This document shows positions 14,420 to 46,650 of a stretch of 64,000 nucleotides of DNA, piece after piece. Source of the stretch: Trujillonella endophytica (GTDB lineage: Bacteria; Actinomycetota; Actinomycetes; Mycobacteriales; Geodermatophilaceae); assembly GCF_900110555.1 (NCBI RefSeq), contig NZ_FOEE01000008.1, positions 124,001 to 188,000 of the forward strand. The letters run 5' to 3'. A program made the translations under genes and the position numbers. A model generated the notes under the pieces. That model made no database searches, was not told the origin of the DNA, and was given only the letters and a program-made list of their open reading frames with translations. Every line of letters begins with the position of its first letter. The stretch's first letter is position 1.

Positions 14420-14463
14420 GTCCCGCATCGCGACTACGCCGTCCCGCGATGCAATACGACATG
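14420..14463 (+). promoter_or_regulatory. IclR-type operator candidates before acetamidase
   Basis: TCCCGCATCGCGACT at 14421-14435 closely matches the 15-mer found before the Rieske genes (TCTCGCATCGCGGTA). A second related element lies at 14441-14463; read on the minus strand it contains TCGTATTGCATCGCGGGAC, sharing TCGTATTGC with the site before the FAH hydrolase gene. Both lie upstream of the acetamidase start. Confidence 0.45.
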
Positions 14464-14511
14464 TCACCCGCGGGAAACGGTGCGGTAACGCCCGCGCGGT
14501 GCGATCGCCCC

Positions 14512-15621
14512 ATGACCACTGCCACCTCCCTCCTGGCGCTCTCGCCGCAGGCCGAGCGCACCTTCTCCGCCCCGGCCGCCTCGCGGCACGCGCTCCCGGC
14601 GACGCCCGCGACGGTGCGCTGGGGGGCCATCGACCCGACCGCCGAGCCCGTGCTGGAGGTCGCCTCGGGTGACGCCGTCGCGCTGGAGGCGGTGAGCCAC
14701 CACGCCGGCGACGCGCCGGAGCTGATGATGGACGCCGGGCTCGACGCGATCTGGGCGGCGATCCCCGAGGGGGAGCGCGGGCCGGGGGTGCACGTGCTGA
14801 CCGGACCAGTGGCGGTCGCCGGGGCGCGGCCGGGCGGCGCGGTCGCCGTCCGCATCGGATCGATGGCGCCGCGGGTGCCCTACGGCTCGAACTGCGCCGC
14901 GAACTGGGGCCTGCTCTACGACACGTACGGCAAGGAGCGGGTCACCGTCTACGAGCTCGACCACTCCGACGGCACCCCGGCCACGGAGTTCCCCACGGTC
15001 GCCCGCCCGCTGTTCGGCTACGACTTCACCTCGCGTGCCCTCTACGACGTCCCGGGATGGCGGACGCCGGCGTCGGCCCGGATCGAGGAGCCGTTCAGCC
15101 GGCCGGTGCGGGTGCCGGTCCGGCCGCACTTCGGCCTGATGGGCGTGCAGCCCGGCGGCGGCGAGGTCCTGTCCAGCATCCCGCCGGGAGTCTTCGGCGG
15201 GAACGTCGACAACTGGCGCTTCGGCCCGGGCGCCACCGTCTTCTACCCGGTGTTCCAGGAGGGTGCCGGCGTCTACTGGGGCGACCCGCACTTCGCCCAG
15301 GGCGACGGCGAGGTCTGCGGCACCGCCATCGAGGCCTCGGCGAACGCCACCGTCCGGCTGGCCGCGGTGGAGGACCTCCAGCTCCGCGCCCCCATGCTGG
15401 AGACCGACACCCACTGGTACACCCACGGCTTCGGCGCCGACCTCGACGCCGCCGCCCGGATGGCCGTGGAGGAGATGATCGCGCTGCTGCGGTGGCGGGT
15501 CGGGCTGTCGGCCGACGACGCCTACTCGCTGTGCTCGGTGGCGATGGACATGGGCGTGACCCAGGTCGTCGACGGCACGCTCGGCGCGCACTGCGGGATC
15601 CGGCGCGACATCTTCCTCTGA
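14512..15621 (+). CDS. Acetamidase/formamidase family protein
   Basis: A 369-residue protein of the FmdA/AmdA family, Zn- or metal-dependent amidases that release ammonia from short amides such as formamide or acetamide. Family motifs are HHAGDAPELMMDAGL near the N-terminus, RVPYGSNCAANWG, MGVQPGGGEVLSSIPPG, FGGNVDNWRF, GVYWGDPHFAQGDGEVCGTAIE and the C-terminal SVAMDMGVTQVVDG. The start ATG 14512 is chosen near the conserved region; ATG 14452 or 14461 in frame are alternatives, and no start has a convincing ribosome site. The promoter region carries the operator motif shared by the catabolic cluster. It converges on the P450 gene across a 28-bp-stem hairpin. The exact amide substrate is unknown. 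Confidence 0.85.
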   Translation: MTTATSLLALSPQAERTFSAPAASRHALPATPATVRWGAIDPTAEPVLEVASGDAVALEAVSHHAGDAPELMMDAGLDAIWAAIPEGERGPGVHVLTGPVAVAGARPGGAVAVRIGSMAPRVPYGSNCAANWGLLYDTYGKERVTVYELDHSDGTPATEFPTVARPLFGYDFTSRALYDVPGWRTPASARIEEPFSRPVRVPVRPHFGLMGVQPGGGEVLSSIPPGVFGGNVDNWRFGPGATVFYPVFQEGAGVYWGDPHFAQGDGEVCGTAIEASANATVRLAAVEDLQLRAPMLETDTHWYTHGFGADLDAAARMAVEEMIALLRWRVGLSADDAYSLCSVAMDMGVTQVVDGTLGAHCGIRRDIFL

Positions 15622-15651
15622 GGTCCCGCGAGCTCCCGCTCCGCACCCTCG

Positions 15652-15712
15652 AGGCATAGGAAGCGATACCCACGTCCTGGCGCTCAGGACGTGGGTATCG
15701 CTTCCTATGCCT
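15652..15712. terminator. Perfect 28-bp stem hairpin between convergent genes
   Basis: Arms at 15652-15679 and 15685-15712 are perfectly complementary, with the 5-nt loop GCGCT. The ends read AGGCATAGGAAGC on both strands. It lies between the acetamidase (+) and P450 (-) stops and is well placed as a bidirectional terminator. The same 13-nt end recurs in the hairpin at 44191-44252. Confidence 0.85.
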
Positions 15713-15730
15713 GTACGGCGGCCGAGCCGG

Positions 15731-17944
15731 CTAGAGGTCGAGCGTGAGCGACGGCGTCCGCGCGCGGCCCACGCAGACCATCATCGACCGGCCCGCGGCG
15801 CGCTCCTCCTCGGTCAGCACCGAGTCCCGGTGCTCCGGCTCCCCGGCCAGCACCCTGGTCTCGCAGGCCCCGCAGTAGCCCTGCTCGCAGTCCGAGGACA
15901 GCGTGGGGACGACGTCGCGCAGCACCTCGACGATCCGCCGGTCGGCCGGCACGGTCACCGTCGTCCCGGTGCGGGCGAGGTGCACGTCGAACGCGACGTC
16001 GCGCGAGGTGTCGACGACGAGCTCCTCCGCCGGCGCGGTGAACCGCTCGACGTGCAGCCGGTCGCCGATCCCGGCCGCGGCGCAGGCGGCCTCCGCCGCG
16101 GCGATCATGGGCGCCGGGCCGCAGCAGTAGACCGCGGTGCCGGGGCCGACGGCCGCCACGGCGGCGGCCAGGTCCGGAACGCCGTGCACGTCCTGCGGCA
16201 GCAGCTGGACCGCGTCGCCGGCCAGCGCGACGAGGTCCTCGGCGAACGCCATCGACGCCGCCGTCCGCCCGCCGTAGAGCACGCGCACGGAGGCGCCGCG
16301 GGCCACGAGCTCGCGGGCCATCGCGAGGATCGGCGTGATGCCGATGCCGCCGGCTATCAGCAGGTGATCCGGCGCCTCGACCAGGGGGAAGTGGTTGCGC
16401 GGGCCGCGGACGGTCAGCCGGGCACCGCTGCGGGCCAGCTCGTGCAGCTCCACGGACCCGCCACGGCCGGCCGGCTCGCGGAGGACGGCGACGGTCCAGG
16501 TGTCGGCGCCGGGCTCGCCGCACAGCGAGTACTGCCGCAGCCGGCCCGAGGGCAGCCGCACCTCGAGGTGGGCCCCGGGCGTCCATGCCGGCAGGCCGGC
16601 GCCCGAGGGGTCGGCGAGGGTCACCGCGACGACGTCGGTGGCGACGGTCGCCACCTCGGTCACCTCGAGCTCGCGCGACACCACCGGGGTGGGGGCCGGT
16701 GCCGAGCCCAGTCGCGGCCCCGGGGGGAACAGCGCGGGGATGGCGTCCCAGCCGGTCTGGTTGCCCCGCGTCGGATAGGGGACGAGCGACTCGGGGAGGA
16801 CGCGGTAGTCCGGCAGCCGGGTGAGGACCTGGCGCATCATCTCGCCGAACATGGCGCGGGCCAGGTGCGCGCCCGCGCAGCGGTGGGAGCCGATGCCGAA
16901 GGCCAGGTGCCGCTGCGGGTTGCGGTCGAGCACCACGGTCTCCGGGTCGGGGAAGACCTCGGGGTCGTGGTTGGCCGCCACCCACGGGATGAGCACCCGC
17001 TGGCCGGCCTTCATCGGGCAGCCGCCGATCTCGGCGTCGGCCAGCAGCGTGCGGGCCATCGACTGCGACGGCGCGAACACCCGCAGGAACTCCTCGACGG
17101 CGACGTCCAGCAGGTCCGGGTCGTCGATGAGCCGCTGCCGCTGGTCCGGGTGCTCCGACAGCCACACGAGGGTGGACCCGGTCAGCGACGTCGTGGTGTC
17201 CACGCCGCCCGCGACCAGCAGGTACATCACCGAGACGAGTTCCTGCTCGGTGAACGGCCGGCCCTCGGGGTGCTCGGCGTGCACGAGCACGGAGACGGCG
17301 TCCTCGCGCGGCTGCGCCCGCCGGGCCGCGATGAGCTCGCGGATGCGGCTCTCCAGGTACATCAGCCCCTCGACCCCGCGCAGGGCCCGCTCGGTGCCGG
17401 GGACGCTGGCGAAGATGTCGTGCACCGGGCCGGCGAGCTTCTTCCAGTCGTCGGTCGGGAAGCCCAGCCAGTCCAGCGTCACCGCGGCCGGCACCGGGTT
17501 GGTGAGGTCGCGGACGAAGTCCGCCGAGCCGGACTCGATGAACGCGTCGATCGCCGCGGTGGTGTGCCGGGCGATCATCGGCTTCAGCGCCTCCACCGCC
17601 TCGGCGGACAGCAGCGGGTTGACCAGCTCCCGGTAGGGCGTCGACCGCGGCGGGTCGAGCTCGATCGGGTACTGCTCCAGGCCGGGGCCGAAGGGGATGA
17701 CGAACGAGATGCCGCGGTCACCGGCCGGCGCGCGCTCGGAGGAGAAGGTCGCGTCGTCCCGGGCGATCCGGACGACGTCGGCGTGGCGGGTGGTGAACCA
17801 GAAGCCGTCGTGCGCCTCGGTCCAGCCGACCGGGCGCTGCTCGCGGAAGCGGCGGTAGTAGGCCACCGGGTCGGCGTTGGCCTCGGGGGAGTGGTGGTCG
17901 AACGGCGCGGCGTCGAGGTCGGGACGGGGAGGGGTGAGGGTCAA
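15731..17944 (-). CDS. Self-sufficient cytochrome P450 fused to an FMN/[2Fe-2S] reductase
   Basis: A 737-residue single-chain monooxygenase of the CYP116B (P450RhF) type. Residues 1-400 are a P450: I-helix LLVAGGVDTTTSLTG, and heme-binding FGIGSHRCAGAHLAR with Cys about 356. Residues about 420-640 form a phthalate-dioxygenase-reductase module, with RQYSLCG for FMN and GGIGITPILAMARE and CCGPAPM for NADH. Residues 645-737 are a plant-type ferredoxin with CEQGYCGAC (Cys about 686, 691, 694) and a fourth Cys in MMVCVG. Electrons pass from NAD(P)H to heme in one polypeptide. The start is TTG 17942-17944 with GGAG 7 nt upstream. It follows the aldehyde dehydrogenase gene by 69 bp in one operon, suggesting hydroxylation or dealkylation to an aldehyde that is then oxidised. 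Confidence 0.93.
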   Translation of the reverse strand: MTLTPPRPDLDAAPFDHHSPEANADPVAYYRRFREQRPVGWTEAHDGFWFTTRHADVVRIARDDATFSSERAPAGDRGISFVIPFGPGLEQYPIELDPPRSTPYRELVNPLLSAEAVEALKPMIARHTTAAIDAFIESGSADFVRDLTNPVPAAVTLDWLGFPTDDWKKLAGPVHDIFASVPGTERALRGVEGLMYLESRIRELIAARRAQPREDAVSVLVHAEHPEGRPFTEQELVSVMYLLVAGGVDTTTSLTGSTLVWLSEHPDQRQRLIDDPDLLDVAVEEFLRVFAPSQSMARTLLADAEIGGCPMKAGQRVLIPWVAANHDPEVFPDPETVVLDRNPQRHLAFGIGSHRCAGAHLARAMFGEMMRQVLTRLPDYRVLPESLVPYPTRGNQTGWDAIPALFPPGPRLGSAPAPTPVVSRELEVTEVATVATDVVAVTLADPSGAGLPAWTPGAHLEVRLPSGRLRQYSLCGEPGADTWTVAVLREPAGRGGSVELHELARSGARLTVRGPRNHFPLVEAPDHLLIAGGIGITPILAMARELVARGASVRVLYGGRTAASMAFAEDLVALAGDAVQLLPQDVHGVPDLAAAVAAVGPGTAVYCCGPAPMIAAAEAACAAAGIGDRLHVERFTAPAEELVVDTSRDVAFDVHLARTGTTVTVPADRRIVEVLRDVVPTLSSDCEQGYCGACETRVLAGEPEHRDSVLTEEERAAGRSMMVCVGRARTPSLTLDL

Positions 17945-18013: not shown

Positions 18014-19474
18014 CTAGACGGCGCGCGGAGGCAGGAGGCGGATGGCGACGGCCTTCTCCTGCGTGTACTCGCGCATCGCGGCGTAGCCGCCGCCGCGGCT
18101 GAAGCCGCTGTCCTTCTGCATGTTGAACGGGAAGCCGATGACGCCGGCGTCGTGGAACTGGTTCACGGCGACCTGGCCGCTGCGCACGCCGGCGGCCAGG
18201 CGCAGGGCCCGCGAGACGTCGGAGGTCCAGATGCACGACAGCAGCCCGAAGTCGGTGCGGTTGGCCAGCTCCAGGGCCGCGGCCTCGCCGCGGAAGGTCT
18301 GCAGCGCCAGCACCGGCCCGAACACCTCCTCGCGGACGATGCGGTCCCCGGGCGAGACGCCGTCGACCACGGTCGGCTCGACGTACCAGCCGGCGTCGCG
18401 GTCGGCGGGGACGCCGCCGCCGGTGAGCACGCGGGCGCCCGAGGCCGGCAGCTCGGCGAGGAAGCCGAGGACGCGGTCGCGCTGGGTGGCGTTGACCAGC
18501 GGGCCCATGTCCAGGTCCTCGTCCCAGGCGCCGATCCGGACCGCGCGCATCGCCGCGACGACCCGCTCGCGGACCTCGTCGGCGATGGACTCCTCGACGA
18601 CCAGCCGGGAGCCGGCGTAGCAGTTCTGCCCGGCGTTCTCGGTGATCGAGCCGACGATCGCCGGGATCGCGGCGTCCAGGTCGGCGTCGGCGAACAGCAG
18701 GTTCGGCGACTTCCCGCCCAGCTCCAGCTTCACCGGGACCAGGTTCTCGGCCGCCGCCCGCATGATGGCGCGGCCCGTCGCGGTCGAGCCCACGAAGCTG
18801 AGGTGGTCGACGTCGGCGTGCCCCGACAGCGCCGCGCCCGCCTCGGGGCCGCCGGTCACGACGTTGAGGACGCCGGCCGGGATCCCGGCCTCGGCGGCCA
18901 GCTCCGCGAGGGCCAGCACGACCAGGGGGGCGACCTCGGACGGCTTCAGGACGACGGCGTTGCCCGCGGCCAGCGCGGGAGCGGCGTTGGCCGCGGTGAG
19001 GACGGCGGGCACGTTCCAGGGGGTGATGACGGCGCAGACGCCCAGCGGCTCCATCAGCGTGTAGCCGTGGAAGTCCGGCGTCCGGCTCGGCAGCGTGACG
19101 CCGGTCAGCTTGTCGGCGGCGCCGCCGAAGTAGCCGATGATGCCGCCGGCGATGAAGGCGTTGGTCCGCCCGCCCGACAGCGGCTTGCCGACGTCCTGGG
19201 CCTCCAGGCCCGCCAGCCGCTCGGCGTTGGCGAAGACCAGCTGCGACCACCGGGACAGCAGGGCGCCGCGGTCGGTCGGGTTGGTGGCCGCCCAGGCCGG
19301 CGCCGCGCGGCGGGCCGCGGCGACCGCGGCGTCCACGTCGGCGGCGCTGCCCCGGGCGACCGCGGCGAACGGCCGCCCGGTGGCGGGGTCGACGAGGTCG
19401 AGCCGGCCTCCGTCGGCGGCGGGCGTCCAGGCCCCGTCGATGAACTGGAGGCCCTCGAACACGGACGTCGTCAT
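18014..19474 (-). CDS. NAD(P)-dependent aldehyde dehydrogenase
   Basis: A 486-residue ALDH that oxidises an aldehyde to its acid. Motifs are TPWNVP (Asn about 154), KPSE, FVGSTATG, ELGGKSP (Glu about 251) and AGQNCYAGSR (nucleophile Cys about 285), plus the C-terminal FPFNMQKDSGFSRGGG contact region. It is a full-length family member. ATG 19472-19474 is followed directly by the P450 fusion gene and is divergent from the alcohol dehydrogenase at 19535; the 60-bp gap carries a copy of the cluster's 15-bp operator motif. Together with the P450 and the alcohol dehydrogenase it may form a hydroxylation/oxidation branch. The natural substrate is unknown. Confidence 0.93.
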   Translation of the reverse strand: MTTSVFEGLQFIDGAWTPAADGGRLDLVDPATGRPFAAVARGSAADVDAAVAAARRAAPAWAATNPTDRGALLSRWSQLVFANAERLAGLEAQDVGKPLSGGRTNAFIAGGIIGYFGGAADKLTGVTLPSRTPDFHGYTLMEPLGVCAVITPWNVPAVLTAANAAPALAAGNAVVLKPSEVAPLVVLALAELAAEAGIPAGVLNVVTGGPEAGAALSGHADVDHLSFVGSTATGRAIMRAAAENLVPVKLELGGKSPNLLFADADLDAAIPAIVGSITENAGQNCYAGSRLVVEESIADEVRERVVAAMRAVRIGAWDEDLDMGPLVNATQRDRVLGFLAELPASGARVLTGGGVPADRDAGWYVEPTVVDGVSPGDRIVREEVFGPVLALQTFRGEAAALELANRTDFGLLSCIWTSDVSRALRLAAGVRSGQVAVNQFHDAGVIGFPFNMQKDSGFSRGGGYAAMREYTQEKAVAIRLLPPRAV

Positions 19475-19498
19475 GCCGAGATCGTGGGCGCGACCATC

Positions 19499-19531
19499 TC
19501 GTCAGTCAAGACGCTCTCTCGTAACGTGACA
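19499..19531 (+). promoter_or_regulatory. Leaderless promoter and operator of alcohol dehydrogenase
   Basis: A -10 element TAACGT at 19522-19527 lies exactly 7 nt before ATG 19535, with TCGTCA as weak -35 at 17-nt spacing; the transcript would start at or near the ATG. TCTCGTAACGTGACA at 19517-19531 overlaps the -10 and matches the operator family (compare TCTCGTAAGTTGAGA before the aldo/keto reductase gene). On the other strand TTGACT serves the divergent aldehyde dehydrogenase. Confidence 0.5.
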
Positions 19532-19534
19532 CGC

Positions 19535-20641
19535 ATGACCGGTCGACCCACTGCCGTGACCGCCGCCGTCCTGCGCGACCCCGCAGGGCCCCTGGAGCTC
19601 GTCCAGCTCGAACTCGCCCCACCCCGGGCCGGCGAGGTGGTGGTGCGCCTGGTGAGCACCGGCATCTGCGGCACCGATCTGGAATTCCGCTCCATGATGA
19701 CCCCGCCCGTCGTGCTCGGGCACGAGGGCGCCGGCATCGTCGAGCAGGTGGGCGAGGGCGTGACCGACCTCGCGGTCGGGGACCCGGTGGCCCTGACCTT
19801 CGCCTTCTGCGGCGAGTGCGGTCCCTGCTCGCAGCAGGCGATGGCGTACTGCGAGAACTTCTGGCAGTACAACTTCATCGGCACCCGGCCCGACGGCAGC
19901 ACGGCCCTGTCGCAGGACGGGCAGCCGGTGCATGGCCACTTCCTCGGCCAGTCCTCGTTCGCCACCCATGTCCTCGCCCGCCGCGGCAGCGTCGTCAAGG
20001 TCCCGGAGGGCACCGACCTGCGGGTGGTCGGGCCGTTCGGCTGCGGGTTCCAGACCGGAGCGGGCGGGGTGCTCAACGTGCTGCGCCCCGCGCCGGGCAG
20101 CTCGATCGCCGTCTTCGGTGCCGGCGCCGTGGGCGCGGCTGCCATCCTCGGGGCCGTCGAGGCGGGCTGCACGACGATCGTCGCGGTCGACGTGAACCCC
20201 GCGAAGCTCGAGCAGGCCCGGGCGCTGGGGGCCACGCACGCCGTGTCGGCGGCCGAGCCGGACCTGGCGGAGCGGGTGCGCGCCGAGGTCCCGGGCGGGC
20301 TGCAGTACAGCCTCGACACGACCGGCCGGGCCGACGTGCTGCGCGCCGCGGTCGAGTCGCTGGCCCCGCTGGGCGTCTGCGGCGTGATCGGCGTGGGTGC
20401 CAGCGCCGAGATGTCGTTCGAGTGGCGCTCGATCCTGTCGACCGGCCGGTCGGTCGTCGGCATCACCGCCGGTGCCAGCGTGCCGGAGGAGTTCCTGCCC
20501 CGACTGGTGGAGCTGCACCGGGCCGGGCGGTTCCCCGTGGACGGGCTGCTCACCCACTACCCGTTCGCGGAGGTCAACCGCGCCCTGGACGACGTCCGTG
20601 CCGGTCGGGTGGGCAAGGCGGTCCTGACCTTCGACGCCTGA
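19535..20641 (+). CDS. Zinc-dependent alcohol dehydrogenase (aryl-alcohol type)
   Basis: A 368-residue medium-chain dehydrogenase with catalytic zinc motifs GICGTD and LGHEGAGIV, the structural zinc lobe CGECGPCSQQAMAYC, and the Rossmann motif VFGAGAVGAAA followed by VDVNPAKLEQA, which favours NAD. It resembles the aryl- or benzyl-alcohol dehydrogenase group (GCGFQTGAGGVLNVL). It would interconvert an alcohol and aldehyde, matching the divergent aldehyde dehydrogenase. There is no Shine-Dalgarno site; the -10-like TAACGT 7 nt before ATG suggests leaderless translation. A structured intergenic region follows the stop. Confidence 0.9.
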   Translation: MTGRPTAVTAAVLRDPAGPLELVQLELAPPRAGEVVVRLVSTGICGTDLEFRSMMTPPVVLGHEGAGIVEQVGEGVTDLAVGDPVALTFAFCGECGPCSQQAMAYCENFWQYNFIGTRPDGSTALSQDGQPVHGHFLGQSSFATHVLARRGSVVKVPEGTDLRVVGPFGCGFQTGAGGVLNVLRPAPGSSIAVFGAGAVGAAAILGAVEAGCTTIVAVDVNPAKLEQARALGATHAVSAAEPDLAERVRAEVPGGLQYSLDTTGRADVLRAAVESLAPLGVCGVIGVGASAEMSFEWRSILSTGRSVVGITAGASVPEEFLPRLVELHRAGRFPVDGLLTHYPFAEVNRALDDVRAGRVGKAVLTFDA

Positions 20642-20724: not shown

Positions 20725-20840
20725 GTTACGACCACGTTGATTCCGTAACGGGCTCCACCGGACCGTTGACAGCGCCGCACCGGCCCGACAACAGTGACCG
20801 CACCGGTCCACATCGCGATCCACCGAATCACGATGCGAGA
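20725..20840 (+). promoter_or_regulatory. Promoter region of the dehydrogenase-amidohydrolase-transporter operon
   Basis: GTTACG/CGTAAC form an inverted repeat at 20725-20749. TTGACA at 20766-20771 is a consensus -35, with AACAGT about 18 nt downstream as -10. At 20826-20840 the minus strand reads TCTCGCATCGTGATT, a copy of the cluster operator motif, placed downstream of the putative start site, where a repressor would block elongation. Confidence 0.4.
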
Positions 20841-23961: not shown

Positions 23962-24044
23962 GCCGGTCGCGCAGCATCCGCACCACCGGCTCCACAGCAC
24001 CGACAACCGTCCGCTCCACCCCAGAACCCCCCGGGAGGCAGCAC

Positions 24045-25136: not shown

Positions 25137-25139
25137 CGC

Positions 25140-32113: not shown

Positions 32114-32115
32114 CC

Positions 32116-33528: not shown

Positions 33529-33557
33529 CCGCCCCCACCCACCCCGAGGAGGAACCC

Positions 33558-35201: not shown

Positions 35202-35233
35202 GGGCGCCGCCCGTCTCGCTGGATGAAACGTCG

Positions 35234-35274
35234 TCTCGTATTGCTTGACAAGACGGCGTCTCGCATCGAAGGAT
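35234..35274 (+). promoter_or_regulatory. Promoter and operator of the FAH hydrolase operon
   Basis: TCTCGTATTGCTTGA at 35234-35248 overlaps the -35 box TTGACA (35245-35250); AAGGAT 18 nt downstream may be -10, and the same bases could serve as ribosome site. A second GTCTCGCAT half lies at 35258-35266. The arrangement suggests repressor control. Confidence 0.5.
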
Positions 35275-36154: not shown

Positions 36155-36200
36155 CGCGCCACCCGATCCCGCCGTCCCCGAGCCCCCCGGAGCCCATCGC

Positions 36201-37385: not shown

Positions 37386-37437
37386 CCGACCCCCTCCCGC
37401 GGGAGGGGCCCAGAAGCAGCGACCGACGGAGGCCCAC

Positions 37438-39472: not shown

Positions 39473-39527
39473 GGGCGTGCTCCTCGGAGGCGTGGGAACA
39501 GAGGTGGGGACGGCGTGCCCGTCTCCC

Positions 39528-39683
39528 GACGTGAGACAGCATCCTGACCTCCGAGACAGGAACGGTCAACGGTGGGCGACGTGGGCGACGCCGCACTACC
39601 GCGGGCGGTCGGGCGGTTGACACGCGCGGCGCGGGAGCACATGCTCGATACCGCGATGCGAGACACCGTCTCGCATGTGTTTC
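39528..39683. promoter_or_regulatory. IclR-Rieske divergent control region
   Basis: For the Rieske genes, TTGACA (39617-39622) with CATGCT 17 nt later forms a promoter. Immediately after it arms ATGCGAGAC (39656-39664) and GTCTCGCAT (39668-39676) make a perfect 9-3-9 inverted repeat, formed by the strong halves of two 15-mers: TCTCGCATCGCGGTA on the minus strand (39649-39663) and TCTCGCATGTGTTTC on the plus strand (39669-39683). Toward the IclR gene, GAGACAG repeats occur at about 39532 and 39556. Confidence 0.65.
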
Positions 39684-39744: not shown

Positions 39745-41178
39745 GTGACGTCGCCCAGCCTCTCCCCCGACCCGGACGCCGCGCCGCTGGTGGTCCAGGA
39801 CTGGGAGCGCCTCGCCTTCCGCGTGCATCGCCGCGCGTACCGCGACGACGCCCTGTTCGCCGCGGAGCGCTCGCGGATCTGGGACCGGACCTGGCTCTAC
39901 CTCGGGCACGAGACCGAGCTGCCGAACCCGAACGACTACAAGGTCCGCGCGCTGGGCGGCCGCCCGCTGATCTTCACCCGCGACTCCACCGGCGAGCTGC
40001 ACGCGTTCCTCAACAGCTGCCCGCACCGCGGAACGGTCCTCTGCCGCGAGACGCAGGGCTCCAGCAAGCACTTCAACTGCTTCTACCACGCGTGGGCGTT
40101 CCACAACACGGGCGAGGTGGCCGCCATCCCGGACCCCTCCGCCTACGCCGACGAGGAGTACAAGGCCAGCATGCGGCTGCGCGAGGTCGCGCGGCTGGAG
40201 GTGTTCGAGGGCTTCGTCTTCGTCTCCTTCACCGACGACGTCCCCCCGCTGCTGGACCACCTCGGGGCCGCCGCCGACTACATCCGCATGATCGGCGAGC
40301 AGCACGTCGCCGGCATGGAGGTCCTGCCCGGCACGCAGCTCTACAGCGTGCGCGGCAACTGGAAGCTCGCCGTCGAGAACGCGATGGACGGCTACCACTT
40401 CTCCCCGACGCACAACACGTTCGTGGGCTACCTGCGCGAGAGCGGCTTCGCCGTCACCGACGACGACCAGTACGCCTACAACCTCGGCAACGGCCACTCG
40501 CTGCTCATCCTCACCGGCCACGGCGGGCGGATCAGCATGCTGTGGGAGCCGCGCTTCGGCGAGGACGAGCGGGTCCGCACCGCCGAGCACCGCCGCGAGA
40601 TGGAGCTGCGACTGGGCTCCGAGCGCGCGCACCTGGTGGCCGACGAGAGCCACATCCTGTTCGTGTTCCCCAACCTGCTGCTGTTCGACCTCGAGGGCCT
40701 GTCGCTCCGTCAGCTGGAGCCGGTCGCTCCGGGCAACACCGACGTCCGGGCCTGGCAGCTGGCCCCCCGCGGCGAGGACCCCGCCGTCCGCGACCTGCGG
40801 ATGCGCACGATGGTCAGCTTCGTCGGCCCCGGCGGCCTGGCCACGCCGGACGACATCGAGGCCTACGAGGCCGTGCAGCGCGGCATCGAGGCCACCGCCG
40901 GGAACGGCCGCGCCGAGCTGGACTACAGCGACATGTCCCGCGGGATGGCCGCCGACGCCGCCGGCGAGCGCGGCCGCTCCACCGACGAGGGCGCCATGCG
41001 CGGCTTCTGGCGGCACTGGGTGCGCTCGGTCGGCGCCGGCGGGCCGGTGGACATCGGCACGCCCCCGCCGCCGCGGCCCGAGCCCACCCCGCTGCCGAGC
41101 AGCCGCCCGCACGGGCTCGACGAGATCCTGGCCGGCACCGAGACCCCCGCGGGTCAGGAGGAGGTGGCGGCGCGATGA
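39745..41178 (+). CDS. Rieske-type ring-hydroxylating oxygenase, alpha subunit
   Basis: A 477-residue oxygenase subunit. Rieske [2Fe-2S] ligands are Cys92 and His94 (SCPHRG) and Cys112 and His115 (CFYHAW). The mononuclear iron site is in ENAMDGYHFSPTH: bridging Asp215, His218 and His223. The protein is somewhat longer than usual, with a Pro-rich C-terminal tail (PPPPRPEPTPLPSSRP). It should dihydroxylate or monooxygenate an aromatic ring, using electrons from a reductase and ferredoxin that are not adjacent. It overlaps the beta-subunit gene by ATGA. Control by the upstream palindrome is likely. The substrate is not deducible. Confidence 0.93.
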   Translation: MTSPSLSPDPDAAPLVVQDWERLAFRVHRRAYRDDALFAAERSRIWDRTWLYLGHETELPNPNDYKVRALGGRPLIFTRDSTGELHAFLNSCPHRGTVLCRETQGSSKHFNCFYHAWAFHNTGEVAAIPDPSAYADEEYKASMRLREVARLEVFEGFVFVSFTDDVPPLLDHLGAAADYIRMIGEQHVAGMEVLPGTQLYSVRGNWKLAVENAMDGYHFSPTHNTFVGYLRESGFAVTDDDQYAYNLGNGHSLLILTGHGGRISMLWEPRFGEDERVRTAEHRREMELRLGSERAHLVADESHILFVFPNLLLFDLEGLSLRQLEPVAPGNTDVRAWQLAPRGEDPAVRDLRMRTMVSFVGPGGLATPDDIEAYEAVQRGIEATAGNGRAELDYSDMSRGMAADAAGERGRSTDEGAMRGFWRHWVRSVGAGGPVDIGTPPPPRPEPTPLPSSRPHGLDEILAGTETPAGQEEVAAR

Positions 41179-41702
41179 CCGCCCTGGACGCCGAGCTCGG
41201 CGCCGCGGTGCGCGGCTCCGACCGCGCGGTGACCCGCGCCGAGGTCGAGGACTTCCTCTTCGCCGAGGCCGCGCTGCTGGACCGCCAGCGCTACGACGAG
41301 TGGCTGGCGCTGTTCGTCGAGGGCGGCCGCTACGAGGTGCCGACCACCGACGCCGGCGCCACCCCGGCCAGCCAGGGCGGCTACTTCGTCTGCGACGACT
41401 GGGACCTGCTCCGCGCCCGGGTGAAGCGGCTGCGCAGCCGCAAGGCGCACGCGGAGAACCCGCCGTCCCTGGTGCACCGGATGATCGCCAACGTGCGCCT
41501 GCTGGAGCGCGAGGGCGACGAGCTCGCCGTCACGGCGAACTTCATCGTGCACCGGGCCCGCGACGGCCGGACCAACGCCTTTCCCGGCCGCTACGTCCAC
41601 CGCCTCCAGGTGACCGACGACGGGCTGCGCTTCCGGCTGCGCCGCGCGGAGCTCGCGCTGGAGCAGCTCGAGGCCGGCGCCCGGCTCTCCTTCATCCTGT
41701 GA
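41175..41702 (+). CDS. Ring-hydroxylating oxygenase, beta subunit
   Basis: A 175-residue SnoaL/NTF2-like small subunit. VEDFLFAEAALLDRQRYDEWLALFVEGGRYEVP is the diagnostic N-terminus, with NVRLLEREGDELAVTANFIVHRAR and GRYVHRLQ later. It is structural, forming the alpha3beta3 assembly. ATG overlaps the stop of the alpha gene, so expression is coupled. A 10-nt gap and GAGAGGTCCCCG precede the next gene. Confidence 0.93.
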   Translation: MTALDAELGAAVRGSDRAVTRAEVEDFLFAEAALLDRQRYDEWLALFVEGGRYEVPTTDAGATPASQGGYFVCDDWDLLRARVKRLRSRKAHAENPPSLVHRMIANVRLLEREGDELAVTANFIVHRARDGRTNAFPGRYVHRLQVTDDGLRFRLRRAELALEQLEAGARLSFIL

Positions 41703-41712
41703 GAGGTCCCCG

Positions 41713-42918
41713 ATGATCCGGCACACCGTGGCGTTCCGGTTCCGGCCCGAGGTCGACCGCACGACGGTCGACGCCCTGCTCGCGGAGCTCGACACGTTCC
41801 CCGCCCACTACCCGGCGATGCAGCGCTGGTCGTCGGGGGAGAACCGCAGCACCCGCGACGACCGGTTCACGCACGCGTTCTCCGTCGAATTCGACACCGA
41901 GGCGGAGCTCGCCGCCTACCTGTCCAGCGAACGGCACGAGCGCTTCGTCGCCGAGGTCTGGCGCCCCGTCGTCGCCGAACGGGCCATCGTCAGCTACGAG
42001 TACACGCCCAGCGCAGGAGACCCCATGCCGCAGCCCGCCCGCCAGCACGGCCCCTTCGGCCTGGAGTACGCGCGCATCGAGGTGCCCGACCTCGAGGAGA
42101 CGATCGAGTTCCTCGTCTACCACGTGGGCCTGCAGCTCGAGCAGCACACCGCCGACCGCGCCTACCTGCGGTCGGACATCGAGCACCACTGCGTCGAGCT
42201 CATCGCCGCGCCGCACCGCGAGGTCGGGCACACCGTGGCGGTCGGCTACAGCGTGGAGGACGCCGAGGTGCTGGGCCGGCTGCAGAAGCGGGTCGTCGAC
42301 GCCGGCCTCGAGGTGCTGGAGCTCGAGGAGCGCCAGCGGAGCCTGTGCGACGAGGGCTTCGCCGTGCGCGACCCCGACGGGCTGGTCGTGGAGCTGTTCA
42401 CCGAGTTCCACGAGTACGCCGAGCCGCCGCACGTCGAGCTCCGCCCGGTCGACCTCGTGCACCCGTTCCTCATCACCGAGCGGTACGAGGAGATGGTCGC
42501 CTTCTACCAGGGCGTGCTGGGCTTCATCCCGAGCGACCACGTGGTCGGGTCGACGACGTTCTTCCGCTGCGAGGACCGCTACCACCACAGCCTGGCCATC
42601 TCGCGCAGCCGCGGGGAGGGCTCCTTCGTCGGCCACCTCTGCTTCGCGATGAAGAGCCTCGACCACGTCATGCGGATGCGGGCGCGGGCGCTGTACAAGG
42701 ACCGGCCGATCGTGTCGGACATGGTCAACCACTCGGCCTCGACGTCGATCGCGTTCTACATGCACGACCCGAGGTTCGGGCCGCGCTACGAGCTGTGCGA
42801 CCGGCACCGGGTGTTCACGCCCGAGGAGCACGAGACCCACCGCGCCCGGAAGATGACCGCCGACCCGCGCAACATCGACGTGTGGCGGCCGGCGAGCGAC
42901 GACTGGGGCCGTTTCTGA
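41713..42918 (+). CDS. Dabb domain fused to a two-domain VOC extradiol dioxygenase
   Basis: A 401-residue fusion. Residues 1-98 are a stress-responsive A/B-barrel (Dabb) domain (MIRHTVAFRF, FTHAFSVEFDTEAELAAYL, HERFVAEVWRPVV). Residues 105-220 and 240-390 are VOC modules of a type I extradiol dioxygenase, with metal ligands His250 (DLVHPF), His308 (VGHLCF) and Glu360 (RYELC) and conserved DPDGLVVELFTEF. It probably cleaves the ring of the catechol made by the preceding Rieske enzyme. An internal ATG at 42025 (residue 105) has an ideal AGGAGA 4 nt upstream, so a free 297-residue dioxygenase may also be made. The Dabb part may shield or isomerise the labile product. Confidence 0.85.
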   Translation: MIRHTVAFRFRPEVDRTTVDALLAELDTFPAHYPAMQRWSSGENRSTRDDRFTHAFSVEFDTEAELAAYLSSERHERFVAEVWRPVVAERAIVSYEYTPSAGDPMPQPARQHGPFGLEYARIEVPDLEETIEFLVYHVGLQLEQHTADRAYLRSDIEHHCVELIAAPHREVGHTVAVGYSVEDAEVLGRLQKRVVDAGLEVLELEERQRSLCDEGFAVRDPDGLVVELFTEFHEYAEPPHVELRPVDLVHPFLITERYEEMVAFYQGVLGFIPSDHVVGSTTFFRCEDRYHHSLAISRSRGEGSFVGHLCFAMKSLDHVMRMRARALYKDRPIVSDMVNHSASTSIAFYMHDPRFGPRYELCDRHRVFTPEEHETHRARKMTADPRNIDVWRPASDDWGRF

Positions 42919-42926
42919 CCCCCGGC

Positions 42927-44198
42927 GTGCCGACGTCCGCGGGTGGCGGCGGGGACCTGGTCCTCGCCGCCCTCGGCGTGCTCGCGGCGACTCCGGCCCC
43001 GCACGGCGCCGAGCGGCCGGCCGCCGAGGCGCTCGCGGCCTGGGGTCGCGCGGCGCTCCCGGGCCTGGACTGGTCCGTCACGCCCGTGGGGGAGGCCGGG
43101 GCCAACGTGGTCGTCACCGTGCCGGGGGACGGCGCCCCGGCGCTGCTGCTGGCCACTCACCTGGACACATCGCTGTCCGGGCTGCCCGCGGACGACGCGC
43201 CGATCACGGGCCGGTCCGACGATCCGGGGCCGCTGCACATCGACGGGGACGAGGTGAGCGGGCCCGGGCTCGGCGTGGCCCGCGGACCGGCCGCGGCGGC
43301 GCTGGCGGGGATCGCGCTGGCCGCCGAGCGGCTGGCCGGCGTCCCGCACCGGCCGCTGCAGCTGCTGCTCGCCGGCTCCGGCACGCACCGCAGCGCCCTC
43401 CCCTCCGCCGTACCCGCCGGCCCGGTGCGCCCCTCCTCCGGCGCCGGCGCGCTGGCCCACCTGGCCACCCAGCCGCGCCCGGACGCCGTCCTCGTGGCCA
43501 AGGGAGGTCCGGCCGCGGTGCTGCGCGCCGAGCCGGGTGCGGGCTACCTGGAGCTCACGGTCACCGGCCGGATGGGGGCCGCGCTGGCCCCGGCGTCGGC
43601 CGATCCGATCGGCGGGGTGCTCGTGCACGCGGGAACGGTGCTCGAGGCGGTCGGCCGGTGGCGGGTGGCGTTCCGCACGGCCCGCGGTGGCCGGCCCGAC
43701 GGTCTCGGCGGCGAGCTGGGCCTCGGGGCGCTGTCCGGGGGGCGGCCGGACAAGCCGGACCTGCTGCCCGCGACCCTCGTCCTGCGGCTGTACGCGGTCA
43801 CGGTGCCCGGTGACGACCTGGCCGCCCTCGCCGGTGAGCTCGCCGCGGCGGTGCGCGCGGACCTGGCGCGAACGCCCCTGGCCGGCTGCGCCGTCGAGGT
43901 GGTGGCCGAGCCGCTGCACCCGGCCGGGGTCACGCCGGCCGACGCGCCCGTCGTGCGCGCCGCGGAGGCCGCGTGGCGGCGGCACCGGCCCGAGCCGCCG
44001 GTCGCCGTCGAGAGCTGGACGGGCTCGACCGACGGCGTCGTCTTCCGGGCGGCGGGCCTGGACACCGCCCGCTGCGGCCCGGCGGCCTCGCCGGACCCCG
44101 CCGATCCGCGCCGCGACCGGCTGTCGCTGGCCGACCTGCGCTCGTTCGCCGCCCTCTACGCCGACGTCGCGGTCACCCTCGCCACCCCGCAGGCATAG
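42927..44198 (+). CDS. M20-peptidase-like protein with missing catalytic residues
   Basis: A 423-residue protein with the overall M20/ArgE/DapE layout: LLLATHLDTSL (His78, Asp80), a central dimerisation region (ELTVTGRMGAALAPASADPIGG) and WTGSTDGVVFRAAGLDT near the end. The bridging metal Asp expected in GxGxxDxKG is missing (GPGLGVARGPAAA), and the Glu-Glu base pair is absent (AGSGTHRS). A conventional two-zinc amidase is therefore unlikely; it may be inactive, use one metal or have another role. It follows the dioxygenase by 8 bp. Its TAG stop lies inside the repeat hairpin at 44191-44252. Start GTG 42927 has no clear ribosome site. Confidence 0.75.
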   Translation: MPTSAGGGGDLVLAALGVLAATPAPHGAERPAAEALAAWGRAALPGLDWSVTPVGEAGANVVVTVPGDGAPALLLATHLDTSLSGLPADDAPITGRSDDPGPLHIDGDEVSGPGLGVARGPAAAALAGIALAAERLAGVPHRPLQLLLAGSGTHRSALPSAVPAGPVRPSSGAGALAHLATQPRPDAVLVAKGGPAAVLRAEPGAGYLELTVTGRMGAALAPASADPIGGVLVHAGTVLEAVGRWRVAFRTARGGRPDGLGGELGLGALSGGRPDKPDLLPATLVLRLYAVTVPGDDLAALAGELAAAVRADLARTPLAGCAVEVVAEPLHPAGVTPADAPVVRAAEAAWRRHRPEPPVAVESWTGSTDGVVFRAAGLDTARCGPAASPDPADPRRDRLSLADLRSFAALYADVAVTLATPQA

Positions 44199-44252
44199 GA
44201 GGCTTTTCCCTGGGTCCGGGGCGCCGGAACAGGGGGAGAGCTTCCTATGCCT
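44191..44252. terminator. Repeat hairpin supplying both stop codons of convergent genes
   Basis: Perfect outer arms AGGCATAGGA (44191-44200) and TCCTATGCCT (44243-44252), then an imperfect inner stem ending CCCTG/CAGGG. The TAG at 44196-44198 ends the M20-like gene; the complementary TAG at 44245-44247 ends the ribokinase gene. The right arm carries AGGCATAGGAAGC on the minus strand, the same 13 nt as the 15652-15712 hairpin. Confidence 0.75.
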
Positions 44253-45186
44253 CGGCCGTGAGGGGCCGGGCCGCCGGCGTCGTGCCCAGCGCCGCCTGCA
44301 CGTCGCGGTTGGCCGGCAGCGCGCCACGGGCGCCGGCGCCGGTCGTCGACAGGGCGGCGGCGGTCACCGCGTAGCGGACCGCGTCCGGCAGCGACTGCCC
44401 GCGGGAGAGCGCCTGGCACAGCGCCCCGCAGAAGCAGTCACCGGCGCCGGTGGTGTCCACGGGGGTCGTGGGCGGCGGGGGCTGGAGCAGCGCCGGCCCG
44501 CCGTCGGAGGGGACGACGACGGCGCCGCGCGCGCCGAGGGTCACCACGACAGCGGTCCGCCTGCCGGCGAGGCCGCGGGCCAGATCGGCGGTCTCGGCCG
44601 GCGACCGCTCGGTGTCCGGGACGCCGGCAAGCGCGGCGAGCTCGTGCTCGTTGGGCACGAGGACGTCGATCCGCTCCAGCAGCTCCGCGGGCAGCGGCGC
44701 CGGCGGGGCGGGGTTGAGCACCACGATGCCGCCGGCGACCCCCGCGGCAGCGGTCACGGTCGCCATCGGCACCTCGAGCTGGAGCAGCAGGACGTCGGCG
44801 CGGTGCACGGGCGCGACGTCGACGTCCTCGGGGGTGAGCGCCGCGTTGGCGCCCGGGACGACGACGATCAGGTTCTCCCCGCTGCCGCTCTCCACCGGGA
44901 TGGTCGCGGAGCCGGTGGGCACCCCCGCCGTGCGGTGCACGCGGCTCACGTTGACCCGGCACTCGGCGAGCGCCGCCTGCATGCGCGCGCCGGCGGGGTC
45001 GTCGCCCACCCGGCCGATCATGTGCACGCCCGGGCCGAGCCGGCCGGCGGCGGCGGCCTGGTTGGCGCCCTTGCCGCCGGGCGCGGTGGCCGACGTGGAG
45101 CCGATGACGGTCTCCCCGCGGCCGGGGAGGCGGTCGACGGTGATGAGCACGTCCTCGTTGAGGCTGCCGACGACGGTGACGGACAC
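44245..45186 (-). CDS. rbsK: Ribokinase (PfkB family)
   Basis: A 313-residue sugar kinase. PGRGETVIGSTSATAPGGKGANQAAAAGRLG is the N-terminal signature (positions about 20-50), NLIVVVPGANAALTPEDV the substrate lid, and DTTGAGDCFCGALCQALS the anion hole with catalytic Asp. Ribose is the expected substrate and fits a nucleoside-like compound taken up by the BMP-type transporter, but a related sugar is possible. GTG 45184-45186 follows AGGAGGCCAGCTCC. It lies downstream of the TauD gene in the same direction (gap 104 bp), and ends in the repeat hairpin. Confidence 0.85.
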   Translation of the reverse strand: MSVTVVGSLNEDVLITVDRLPGRGETVIGSTSATAPGGKGANQAAAAGRLGPGVHMIGRVGDDPAGARMQAALAECRVNVSRVHRTAGVPTGSATIPVESGSGENLIVVVPGANAALTPEDVDVAPVHRADVLLLQLEVPMATVTAAAGVAGGIVVLNPAPPAPLPAELLERIDVLVPNEHELAALAGVPDTERSPAETADLARGLAGRRTAVVVTLGARGAVVVPSDGGPALLQPPPPTTPVDTTGAGDCFCGALCQALSRGQSLPDAVRYAVTAAALSTTGAGARGALPANRDVQAALGTTPAARPLTAEA

Positions 45187-45290
45187 GGAGCTGGCCTCCT
45201 GGGCTCGGACGGACTGGGGACCTCGGTCAGGGCCATCCTCCAGGGGCCCGCGCCGAGCGGGCGAGGCGCGGGGGGAAGGACGGTCCCTTC

Positions 45291-46370
45291 TCACAGCCCC
45301 CAGGTCAGGTCCGGGGCGGCGGCGTTCGCGATGTGGGAGATGCGCTCCACGTCCTCGCTGCCGCTGCGGTTGCCGTCACGGCCCTGGACGACGGAGTTCT
45401 TGCCGAAGCCCTCGACCAGCGGCCGGCCCACGTCGCGCCGGAGCCACAGCCGCAGCAGGTGACGGCGGCGCTCCACCTCGGGGAAGTCCTCGTAGGAGGT
45501 CCGCGAGTGCAGCGCGGCGTAGTTCAGCAGCCACTGGACGTCGCCGGGCTGGAAGTCCATGTCGATGGGCAGCCCCTCCGACTGCGACACCTCGTCGTAG
45601 AGGGCGAGCACCTCCCGCTGCGCCTCGGTCAGCCGCGGCACGTCGGGGAAGCGCTGCGCGGACTCGATCATCGAGCTGCCGGCGTAGCTGGAGAAGACGC
45701 CGTCCACCCAGCTGCAGATGGGGGAGGTGTACCAGTCGGCCGGGGCGTCCTTGTCCTGCGCCTTCCAGTCCCAGTGCCAGGTGTCGAACAGCAGCGGCGC
45801 GAGGTCGGGGCGGCGCCGCAGGACCTCGTTGTAGATCGTCGCGCCGCTGACCAGGCTGCTCGAGCCCCCGGACCGCGCGGCGCGCAGGCACATGAGGGCG
45901 ACGACGTCGGAGCTGTCGGAGTGGAACGGCAGCCGGTCGCGCACGCGGGAGGGCAGCGCGCCGTCGGCCATCGTGAGGTTCGAGGTGGCGATGACGTGGT
46001 CGAGCAGGTCGCCGACCTCGTTCTGCTTCATCGGCACGCCCAGGTGCAGGCCCAGGACGAAGAAGATCGCGCTGGCCAGGACGTCGCCGTACTCCTCGGT
46101 GCGCAGGCCCCGGACCAGGATGAAGCCGCGGCCGCTGTCCAGCTGCCGGCCGACCTCCTCCAGGTGGGCGGCGTTGGCCGGGACGGGGTACTGCTCGGCG
46201 GTCACCGCGCGCAGGTCGGGGTCGTCGGCGACGAACCGACGCCCCACCTCCTCGAGCTCGGTGCGCTCGGCGTCGGAGAGCTCGTAGATCCACTCGGTGC
46301 CCTGGGAGAGGACGTCGCCGCGCCAGGCGGCGGGTCCCTCGACCGGGGAGAGCGAGACAGTGCTGGTCAT
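45291..46370 (-). CDS. TauD/TfdA-family Fe(II)/2-oxoglutarate dioxygenase
   Basis: A 359-residue dioxygenase. The facial triad is His150 and Asp152 (PFHSDSSD) and His288 (ALHSRTSYED); RRHLLRLWLRRDVGRP carries the 2-oxoglutarate Arg. TGSRF-type loops are present in NEVGDLLDHVIATSNLTMADGALPSR. It hydroxylates or decarboxylates a small substrate with succinate and CO2 formed. ATG 46368-46370 has GAGGAACCCCCC upstream. It is preceded by a 28-codon ORF and a promoter with an operator of the cluster family, so it probably belongs to the regulon. The substrate is unknown. Confidence 0.88.
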   Translation of the reverse strand: MTSTVSLSPVEGPAAWRGDVLSQGTEWIYELSDAERTELEEVGRRFVADDPDLRAVTAEQYPVPANAAHLEEVGRQLDSGRGFILVRGLRTEEYGDVLASAIFFVLGLHLGVPMKQNEVGDLLDHVIATSNLTMADGALPSRVRDRLPFHSDSSDVVALMCLRAARSGGSSSLVSGATIYNEVLRRRPDLAPLLFDTWHWDWKAQDKDAPADWYTSPICSWVDGVFSSYAGSSMIESAQRFPDVPRLTEAQREVLALYDEVSQSEGLPIDMDFQPGDVQWLLNYAALHSRTSYEDFPEVERRRHLLRLWLRRDVGRPLVEGFGKNSVVQGRDGNRSGSEDVERISHIANAAAPDLTWGL

Positions 46371-46467
46371 GGGGGGTTCCTCCACGGGACGGACGTGCGG
46401 GCGGCGGGCGCGGGATGCGGCACGGGCCCGCGGACGTGGGGACGTCGGCGGGCTCGGAGGCGGGAGG

Positions 46468-46554
46468 TCAGAAGGGGACCTGGACGGCCCCGGCGGCGGT
46501 GCCGGGGCGCATGCTCGGACGCAGGGACGGGGCGGGCGGGCCGGCTGCGGTCAC
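46468..46554 (-). CDS. Possible 28-residue leader or small peptide gene
   Basis: GTG 46552-46554 to TGA 46468-46470, 28 residues rich in Pro, Ala and Gly, beginning MTAAGPPAPSLRPSMRPG and ending VQVPF. The ribosome site GGGAGG lies 6 nt upstream, among the best in the window, and the frame starts about 33 nt after the predicted transcription start. It ends about 97 nt before the TauD gene. No Cys, no leader-type signal and no family likeness are seen. It might be a regulatory upstream ORF, a small protein, or chance. Confidence 0.4.
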   Translation of the reverse strand: MTAAGPPAPSLRPSMRPGTAAGAVQVPF

Positions 46555-46594
46555 GGTCTGCCTCCCTGGATCTGCTGCGCGAGCGGTGCCGACG

Positions 46595-46650
46595 ACGCTA
46601 GGGCACGCCCGCACGGAGCGTCAAGAGAGACGACGTCCCGCAATGCGAGA
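46595..46650 (-). promoter_or_regulatory. Promoter and operator of the TauD-ribokinase unit
   Basis: On the minus strand TTGACG (46624-46619), an 18-nt spacer and TAGCGT (46600-46595) form a strong actinobacterial promoter. Upstream, TCTCGCATTGCGGGA (46650-46636) is the best palindrome of the operator family: arms TCTCGCA and TGCGGGA differ by one base from perfect symmetry. Its edge abuts the stop codon of the DUF6328 gene. Confidence 0.65.

Follow-up and report, generated by a model that had tools for sequence, protein, structure and literature searches.

Across about 32 kb of the 64,000-nucleotide stretch of the Trujillonella endophytica genome analysed here (hereafter the window), a short element recurs in front of catabolic genes and of a gene for an IclR-family regulator. 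The question is whether its copies form one regulon, which protein would bind them and which compound the controlled genes would degrade. A sequence-only reading of this DNA had listed eight related 15-mers and taken them for promoter-linked 15-bp operators of one IclR regulon.

Extent and architecture of the proposed operator

The eight 15-mers were all recovered as exact and unique sequences where that reading had placed them, strand included, and all eight fall in intergenic gaps (genes were predicted with a purpose-built caller based on codon-position GC). The 7-mer TCTCGYA by itself was not enriched in the window (15 observed vs 11.2 expected); 8 of these 15 matches are intergenic, the intergenic share of the window being 11.3% (binomial P 8e-5). 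TCYCGYAWNGYG occurred 6 times vs 0.5 expected, and TCTCGYAWNGYG, a pattern constructed from the noted sites themselves, was found 4 times in the entire 4.87 Mb genome, every time inside the window, the reversed control giving 0. Two looser patterns were insufficiently specific, namely the 15-mer when as many as 2 mismatches were allowed (13 vs 7 expected) and, genome-wide, the composite pattern with 3 mismatches (130 vs 85 in the control), and the latter result made a weight matrix necessary.

The matrix was trained on loci L034-L088 only (208 sites from 54 of 55 loci), excluding the window and its genus, although a consensus drawn up after inspection of the window sites supplied its starting values. 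At 14 bits or more, a cut picked post hoc from a table of cuts from 4 to 14 (12 bits gave one coding match in the control), the window contained 14 matches, all intergenic and none coding; these count overlapping registers of the same arrays and correspond to seven arrays, located from 14.4 to 46.7 kb. At this cut no match was found in the remainder of the window or in 320 kb from other parts of the same genome. The motif did not turn up at random coding positions in the window or the control. One hundred column-permuted matrices yielded on average 0.09 window matches, with a maximum of 1. With a second model, R1, built from 74 of 88 sites of orthologous loci (14 were removed by hand), 7 of 7 genome-wide matches with E up to 10 lay within the cluster, 150 of 659 candidates being scored, so that weak matches may be missed.

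The proposed size of 15 bp did not survive: the real unit measures 25-35 bp and comprises three or four boxes, the 15-mer being the outer box pair. Pentamer boxes of alternating orientation recur in 10-bp steps (CGAGA-N5-TCTCG-N5-CGAGA), with at most four in 35 bp, and conservation is stronger for the inner pair, CGAGA-N5-TCTCG, than for the outer one. De novo searches with widths 15, 17 and 19 recovered this inner pair; the motif obtained with width 13, tcgTCGnCGAcga, was different and weaker. Among exact pairs 5-40 bp apart in the intergenic DNA of orthologous loci, 29 of 36 CGAGA..TCTCG pairs and 5 of 15 TCTCG..CGAGA pairs had spacing 10, and neither type was found at this spacing in coding DNA.

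Three-box alternating IclR operators have been described for 32 orthologous groups, including PcaU, which requires the third box for binding (PMC8222616). The window arrays share with them the three boxes, the alternating direction, the regular spacing and the association with IclR-family regulators, several of which control aromatic catabolism in the published class. Because the boxes alternate in direction, the two pairs read as group 1 and group 2 of that study (GKTYCRYW3-4RYGRAMC and TGRAACAN1-2TGTTYCA, respectively). By eye, the window box GTCTCGCA differs from the group 1 box GKTYCRYW by one base, C for T, and several window promoters differ from the class in having a fourth box or overlapping arrays. 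This operator type was already known (PMC8222616); the function proposed here for the window system is new.

The individual predicted operators are as follows, with promoter elements positioned by eye. At the acetamidase gene (start 14512), the noted site 14421-14435 was exact in sequence but scored less than 6 bits, and the strong, conserved site (20.0 bits) instead occupies 14442-14466 of the minus strand; TCCCG at 14421 is possibly an additional box. A four-box operator at 19497-19531 (21.1 and 23.0 bits) is common to the divergent aldehyde dehydrogenase (18014-19474, minus strand) and alcohol dehydrogenase (19535-20641, plus strand) genes. The two-box site at 20826-20840 (minus strand), 5' of a second alcohol dehydrogenase gene (20883), was likewise exact and is retained in two same-genus genomes, but it is weak (11.0 bits) and lies some 25-40 bp downstream of the predicted transcription start. 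A flavin reductase gene sits behind this site. The four boxes at 34276-34310 (19.7 and 29.8 bits) cover the -35 and -10 of an aldo-keto reductase gene (ATG 34314), and two arrays that overlap with a 25-bp offset, at 35214-35273 (20.0-28.5 bits), cover those of the operon starting with ATG 35282. The second of these arrays, to which 35249-35273 belongs, was absent from the eight listed sites, as was the operator at 39522-39556 (16.7 and 11.7 bits); the latter covers the predicted -10 (39541-39546) of iclR, for which we propose autoregulation. The Rieske operon has a four-box operator at 39649-39683 (26.3 and 14.2 bits), immediately 3' of its predicted -10 (39640-39645). Finally, the operator at 46616-46650 (21.2 and 14.9 bits) covers, and extends upstream of, the -35 of a TauD dioxygenase gene on the minus strand and probably also serves the ribokinase-like gene behind it (both within 44245-46370, minus strand, 104 bp apart, from gene calls and domain searches). 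Footprinting in two same-genus genomes shows conserved operator sites.

The genes of the proposed regulon and the lum cluster

A ribokinase, a Bmp importer and a flavin reductase together first suggested flavin catabolism. For Pimelobacter (Nocardioides) simplex ATCC 6946, the lum enzymes that act in vitamin B2 catabolism were reconstituted in 2025 and degrade lumichrome in vitro (PMC12746152); enzyme functions given below are taken from that work, and the letters lumA-Y, on P. simplex genes and on orthologues, are ours, from the gene order, sizes and functions reported there. In P. simplex, the orthologous iclR adjoins lumA and the operators sit at lum promoters: matches of at least 14 bits were found only there within the 100 kb scanned, and genome-wide all 6 matches were at lum promoters (150 of 992 candidates scored, so weak ones may be missed), and three of these six places are not part of training locus L055. 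The main text of PMC12746152 does not contain the words "regulator", "IclR" or "transcription".

The window encodes orthologues of LumC-F, LumN-R and LumU-Y. On the plus strand, lumV (FAH), lumW (pyrone hydrolase), lumX (aldolase) and lumY (cupin hydratase) lie at 35282-38633 (57, 68, 61 and 66% identity), and lumC, lumD (Rieske), lumE (extradiol dioxygenase) and lumF (putative metallohydrolase) at 39745-44198 (74, 57, 69 and 50%). For the lower pathway, counterparts of LumC, LumD, LumE, LumW, LumX and LumY are thus present at 57-74% identity. An ABC importer resembling LumO-R (Bmp binding protein, ATPase and two permeases; 40, 51, 39 and 54%) is encoded at 24045-28875 (plus strand), the aldehyde dehydrogenase at 18014-19474 is LumN-like (63%), and the alcohol dehydrogenase at 19535-20641 is LumT-like at 34% only. 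The lumU orthologue (15731-17944, minus strand; 57% over 736 aa), a P450 fused with ferredoxin and reductase domains, is predicted to be a LumU-type self-sufficient P450 for 7-methyl oxidation. The gene at 42927-44198 had been considered as an MFS transporter, which we rejected; it is the lumF orthologue and has no Pfam match.

The upper half of the pathway differs. LumA, LumB and, at E 1e-5, LumI, LumJ, LumK and LumL had no match in the window, LumM reached 27% there, and LumH gave just one 63-residue match (48%), its assignment in P. simplex being tentative (80 kDa in PMC12746152 vs 51 kDa for the chosen gene). LumI, LumL and LumM were searched in the window, and LumK, LumJ and LumH in the whole genome as well: LumK had no match in the genome (with a query lacking a positive control), LumJ had long matches at 31-35% only and the best LumH match was 33%. 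The window thus has no clear counterparts for pyrimidine-ring hydrolysis (LumH, I and M), the ThDP decarboxylase (LumK/L) and the quinoxaline oxidase (LumJ), and the lack of LumK together with the weakness of LumJ and LumH genome-wide suggests that the P. simplex route is probably not running unchanged. The cluster also contains two TRZ/ATZ-type amidohydrolases, an acetamidase, an OMT and SnoaL, VOC and TauD proteins; amidohydrolases of another kind, TauD, the ribokinase and the acetamidase set it apart from the P. simplex cluster.

These differences give some room to another explanation, in which the regulon and its IclR operator are real, another aromatic compound is degraded, and what is shared with the lum pathway is limited to the lower, ring-cleaving half. 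The missing or distant LumK, LumJ, LumH and LumM and the additional enzymes speak for it, as does the finding of a LumU-like P450 in just 6 of 58 other orthologous loci (flanks limited to 8 kb). Since the window nevertheless carries orthologues of LumU, LumN and LumO-R at 39-63% and of LumC at 74%, we regard this explanation as possible but clearly the less likely one. The window is best read as a lum-type regulon for flavin catabolism whose upper pathway differs. One form of it, which we put forward only tentatively, is a second, variant route by which flavins would be mineralised under a single regulator, and in which the TRZ/ATZ-type amidohydrolases would open the C-ring instead of LumH-L; ribose salvage by the ribokinase-like protein and the flavin reductase in the same regulon would then point to riboflavin or a modified flavin, not free lumichrome, as the entry substrate.

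The comparison separates a conserved lower from a variable upper half of the lum pathway, and it proposes a regulator, an operator and controlled promoters for lum both in the window and in the organism where the pathway is proven. The operator could serve as a sequence marker for lum-type regulons across Actinomycetota and in one Chloroflexota assembly. Our findings also suggest a lumichrome-responsive switch; as lumichrome is a plant-growth signal and a quorum-sensing mimic (PMC12746152), its sensing by soil bacteria becomes directly testable.

PDB searches with the Rieske and TauD proteins returned no close characterised relative, and among the best 15 of 153 plasmid matches of the Rieske protein the nearest (75%) was an unannotated Streptomyces record, the other 14 being at most 41%. 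In literature searches, nothing among the matches listed corresponded to an IclR-Rieske gene cluster, and TCTCGCAT was not found together with IclR.

The IclR protein as the probable cognate regulator

It is very likely, in our view, that the IclR-family protein encoded at 38687-39472 (minus strand) is the local regulator, most probably a repressor, of this lum-type catabolic regulon, whose substrate would be lumichrome or a closely related flavin or quinoxaline. Its HTH_IclR (PF09339, 44.6 bits) and IclR_C (PF01614, 75 bits) domains both exceed the Pfam cut-offs, and the recognition-helix segment SKATAHRYTKALR is conserved at 90% or more per position across 61 orthologues and differs in 17 paralogues. 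At least two IclR protomers would bind the alternating pentamer boxes spaced by one helical turn, the arrays would cover the -10, the -35 or the transcription start both of iclR and of the operons that lie from 14.4 to 46.7 kb, and a compound of the pathway would lift the repression.

The sign of regulation is less certain, as PcaU and PobR, which have similar sites, are reportedly called activators in the title of a study cited in PMC8222616. The IclR protein could likewise be an activator bound to DNA with and without its ligand: PcaR/PcaU/PobR (TIGR02431) is its best NCBIfam model, although its 98 bits vs a cut-off of 284.75 place it outside this subfamily, a multi-box operator is common to both, PcaU also depends on a three-box site (PMC8222616), and the site at 46616-46650 spans the -35 and reaches upstream. 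We find this rather unlikely, since the arrays at iclR, the Rieske operon, the divergent dehydrogenases, the aldo-keto reductase and lumV overlap a promoter element (-10 or -35) or start point predicted by eye, where a bound protein should block RNA polymerase.

The assignment of the motif to this IclR protein was supported by its orthologues, whose clusters had been expected to keep the motif: intergenic DNA contains a place of 14 bits or more in 56 of 59 loci. Of the three exceptions, L087 has its matches within predicted genes, the best score of L071 is 13.3 bits, and on the 4.2-kb contig of L086 nothing reaches 7 bits. Intergenic places outnumber coding ones (213 vs 4), and a downstream gene starts no more than 450 bp away from 197 of 200 places counted after merging; in 12 of 58 loci, the 450 bp upstream of iclR contain no place of at least 14 bits. 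As these loci were gathered by IclR homology, the association is partly built in, and the genome-wide scans are more independent, although two of the genomes scanned, G001 and G002, are probably the same as those of loci L030 and L033. Two of 20 paralogue IclR loci also reach 14 bits, so that three-box operators of other IclR proteins are in part recognised by the matrix.

The binding is deduced from co-occurrence. An unlinked regulator could bind the motif instead, with the IclR protein a bystander; several observations make this very improbable. In 59 genomes (G000 included), R1 matches with E up to 0.1 were found in exactly the five that encode an IclR of at least 56% identity (Fisher P 2e-7), neither being detected in the other 54, with at most 126 candidates scored per genome under stricter filters, so that weak matches may be missed. 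At five loci (L061, L063, L066, L069 and L070), none of the 31 other window proteins tested was matched, yet a site persists 32-51 bp from where iclR is predicted to start, although all five are second iclR copies in Microtetraspora genomes carrying another copy. The agreement of the window box, compared by eye, with the published IclR box (PMC8222616) at all but one base points the same way, and IclR control of the arrays appears well supported by these comparisons. A chance likeness selected by eye, with which the lack of enrichment of TCTCGYA alone would agree, can be set aside in view of the genome-wide scans, the matrix scan, the permuted matrices, the box spacing and the P. simplex matches.

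The match G002:C16 lay inside a predicted gene and was taken as chance.

Operator sites and their architecture

An IclR protein had been proposed by the sequence-only reading to control eight copies of a 15-bp operator across the cluster (14.4-46.7 kb of the window). This is correct in substance: all eight sequences are present at the positions assigned to them and all eight lie outside predicted genes. The site is real but its length was underestimated, since the operator is an array of boxes at 10-bp steps of which the 15-mer is the outer pair. The TCTCGYA seed was not enriched by itself in the window; 8 of its 15 matches were intergenic (P 8e-5). The pattern TCTCGYAWNGYG occurred four times in the 4.87 Mb genome, each time inside the window, and its reversed control not at all; because it was built from the sites themselves, better tests were made.

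We searched de novo for motifs in 55 loci, taking up to 500 bp of DNA upstream of iclR and excluding the window and Blastococcus, and recovered CGAGA-N5-TCTCG at widths 15, 17, and 19 and a different, weaker motif at width 13. The boxes alternate in direction at 10-bp steps (CGAGA-N5-TCTCG-N5-CGAGA), the third being conserved least (3.2 of 5 matches versus 4.1 and 4.3 in 74 sites). Allowing up to 4 mismatches, this composite matched 390 intergenic and 215 coding places in the 59 ortholog loci (reversed control, 34 and 286), and 2 and 24 in 20 paralogue loci (control, 4 and 19). A model-free count agreed: among pairs 5-40 bp apart in ortholog intergenic DNA, 29 of 36 CGAGA..TCTCG and 5 of 15 TCTCG..CGAGA pairs were spaced by exactly 10, and neither kind was found at this spacing in coding DNA or in the intergenic DNA of 16 control stretches of the own genome. 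Many Streptomyces loci showed no box pair directly at iclR among the sites written out. The architecture is already known, since the consulted part of PMC8222616 predicts alternating three-box sites in 32 orthologous groups of IclR proteins and cites a requirement for the third box in PcaU. The window regulator, its operator sequence, and a link to lumichrome catabolism did not appear among the literature matches listed.

Genome-wide scans and conservation

A matrix of 29 positions was trained on L034-L088, a subset of the ortholog loci (208 sites from 54 of 55 loci). At 14 bits or more it found 14 matches in the window, all intergenic and forming seven arrays (14,442-46,650), with none in the remainder of the window or in 320 kb of other DNA of the genome; the weight-matrix scan thus upholds the proposed motif, no coding match being found in the window or control. 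At 10 bits, we obtained 17 intergenic matches in the cluster, one in the remainder of the window, and none intergenic and one coding in the 320 kb, while 100 permuted matrices gave a mean of 0.09 matches. A lone weak intergenic site (52433-52457, 11.9 bits) lies outside the cluster.

R1, a sequence model of the operator built from 74 of 88 sites, was run against the window's genome, where its seven matches (E up to 10) all fell within the cluster. At E up to 0.1 it matched 5 of 59 genomes (the window's own, G001, G002, G046, and G049), exactly the five encoding an IclR of at least 56% identity. L030 and L033, both outside the training set, probably come from G001 and G002, and no tie of G046 or G049 to any training locus was found. 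Strong sites precede the Rieske genes and adjoin the iclR genes in G046 and G049, and in G046 another lies between the aldehyde (ALDH) and alcohol dehydrogenase (ADH) genes, as in the window. An extra R1 match in G002 falls within a predicted gene and is probably due to chance. Aligned with G001 and G002, the arrays formed conserved blocks within mostly diverged spacers. Conservation of the boxes was looser at the aldo-keto reductase (AKR) gene; the 14421 site retained only GTCCCGC plus a few bases, 14442-14466 was well kept, and 20826-20840 was conserved despite a weak matrix score.

The IclR protein and its orthologues

The product of 38687-39472 (minus strand) is an IclR-family regulator. 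Its orthologues (59 loci, L030-L088, 52-97% identity) occur in Blastococcus (best matches), Pseudonocardia, Streptomyces, Nocardioides/Pimelobacter, Actinomadura, Microtetraspora, Micromonospora, Williamsia, Rhodococcus, other actinomycetes, and one Chloroflexi assembly. As expected if motif and regulator belong together, orthologous clusters carry the motif: the core pattern occurred 24 times in these loci (reversed control, 0), and the matrix found an intergenic operator place in 56 of 59, with 213 places intergenic versus 4 coding. Sites precede iclR in 46 of 58 loci, and the Rieske and FAH genes in 33 of the 35 and 33 of the 37 loci having them. The recognition-helix segment SKATAHRYTKALR is at least 90% constant at each position in 61 orthologues and not constant in 17 paralogues (aligned from 20 loci). 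Two of the 20 distant paralogue loci had matrix matches, so its specificity for the window IclR is incomplete. These seeming three-box sites (L027:1311-1345, L023:2396-2420), with TCCCG-type boxes and another recognition helix, offer a natural comparison of specificity.

Promoter geometry was predicted from sequence. The AKR (34314), ADH (19535), and lumV (35282) genes have a -10-like hexamer ending 7 bases ahead of the ATG, and in the divergent ALDH gene (19474) the distance is 6 bases; these four promoters are probably leaderless, and in three of them operator boxes overlap the -10. The predicted -35 and -10 both lie under the arrays at AKR and lumV; at iclR and ADH the arrays cover the predicted -10, and at ALDH the -35. 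At the Rieske operon (39745-44198) they cover the predicted start point, and at TauD (44245-46370, with a ribokinase-like gene) the -35 and the region upstream of it. Such placement would suit a repressor that also regulates its own gene.

Five Microtetraspora genomes (L061, L063, L066, L069, and L070) have a second copy of this iclR that lies apart from the lum-like cluster and has an operator of its own next to it. A related cluster contains two convergent adjacent IclR genes (L110:14175-15759, with 58 and 52% identity to that of the window), possibly paired regulators.

Relation to the lumichrome cluster

According to the consulted text of PMC12746152, lumichrome catabolism was reconstituted in vitro with genes of a 25-gene cluster of Nocardioides simplex ATCC 6946, our locus L055 (Pimelobacter simplex). 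In 100 kb around it, operators of at least 14 bits occur at six places, all at lum genes: two between lumB and lumC, one in each of the lumN-lumO and lumT-lumU intervals, and one each ahead of lumH and lumV. Three of these lie outside L055 and thus outside the training set. Genome-wide, the six R1 matches reported at E up to 10 all fall at these places. The predicted lumN start overlaps its operator, the gene call probably being too long. An iclR orthologue (66%) adjoins lumA. The main text of PMC12746152 nowhere uses "regulator", "IclR", or "transcription", the consulted part of the commentary PMC12752717 names no lum regulator, and the listed literature matches for lumichrome with regulators included nothing relevant.

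The window encodes orthologues (39-74%) of lumC, D, E, F, N, O-R, U, V, W, X, and Y (lumV-Y at 35282-38633), a lumT-like ADH (34%), a 27% match to lumM, and a 63-residue match to lumH; lumA, B, G, I, J, K, L, and S had no match there. Genome-wide, LumJ had long matches only at 31-35%, LumH reached 33% at best, and LumK had none in a search run without a positive control. The lower pathway thus resembles, by sequence, the proven P. simplex pathway; with lumH-M absent or weak, it would appear that the C-ring must be attacked by different steps or that another flavin or a quinoxaline serves as substrate. Among the window's genes, candidates are two TRZ/ATZ-type amidohydrolases, the acetamidase, a flavin reductase, TauD, and the ribokinase-like protein. 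A function can now probably be assigned to the regulon. The run at 20883-34025 (ADHs, both amidohydrolases, the flavin reductase, a Bmp importer, SnoaL, two VOC proteins, and an OMT) occupies the place of lumH-M and lumO-R and is a candidate variant upper pathway. Adjoining the cluster are apparently unrelated znuABC-type zinc uptake genes (11703-14340). The Chloroflexota assembly (L087:358-392) carries the same IclR (53%) together with genes resembling lumC-E and an inner pair of boxes that is perfect, which suggests that the regulon passed between phyla.
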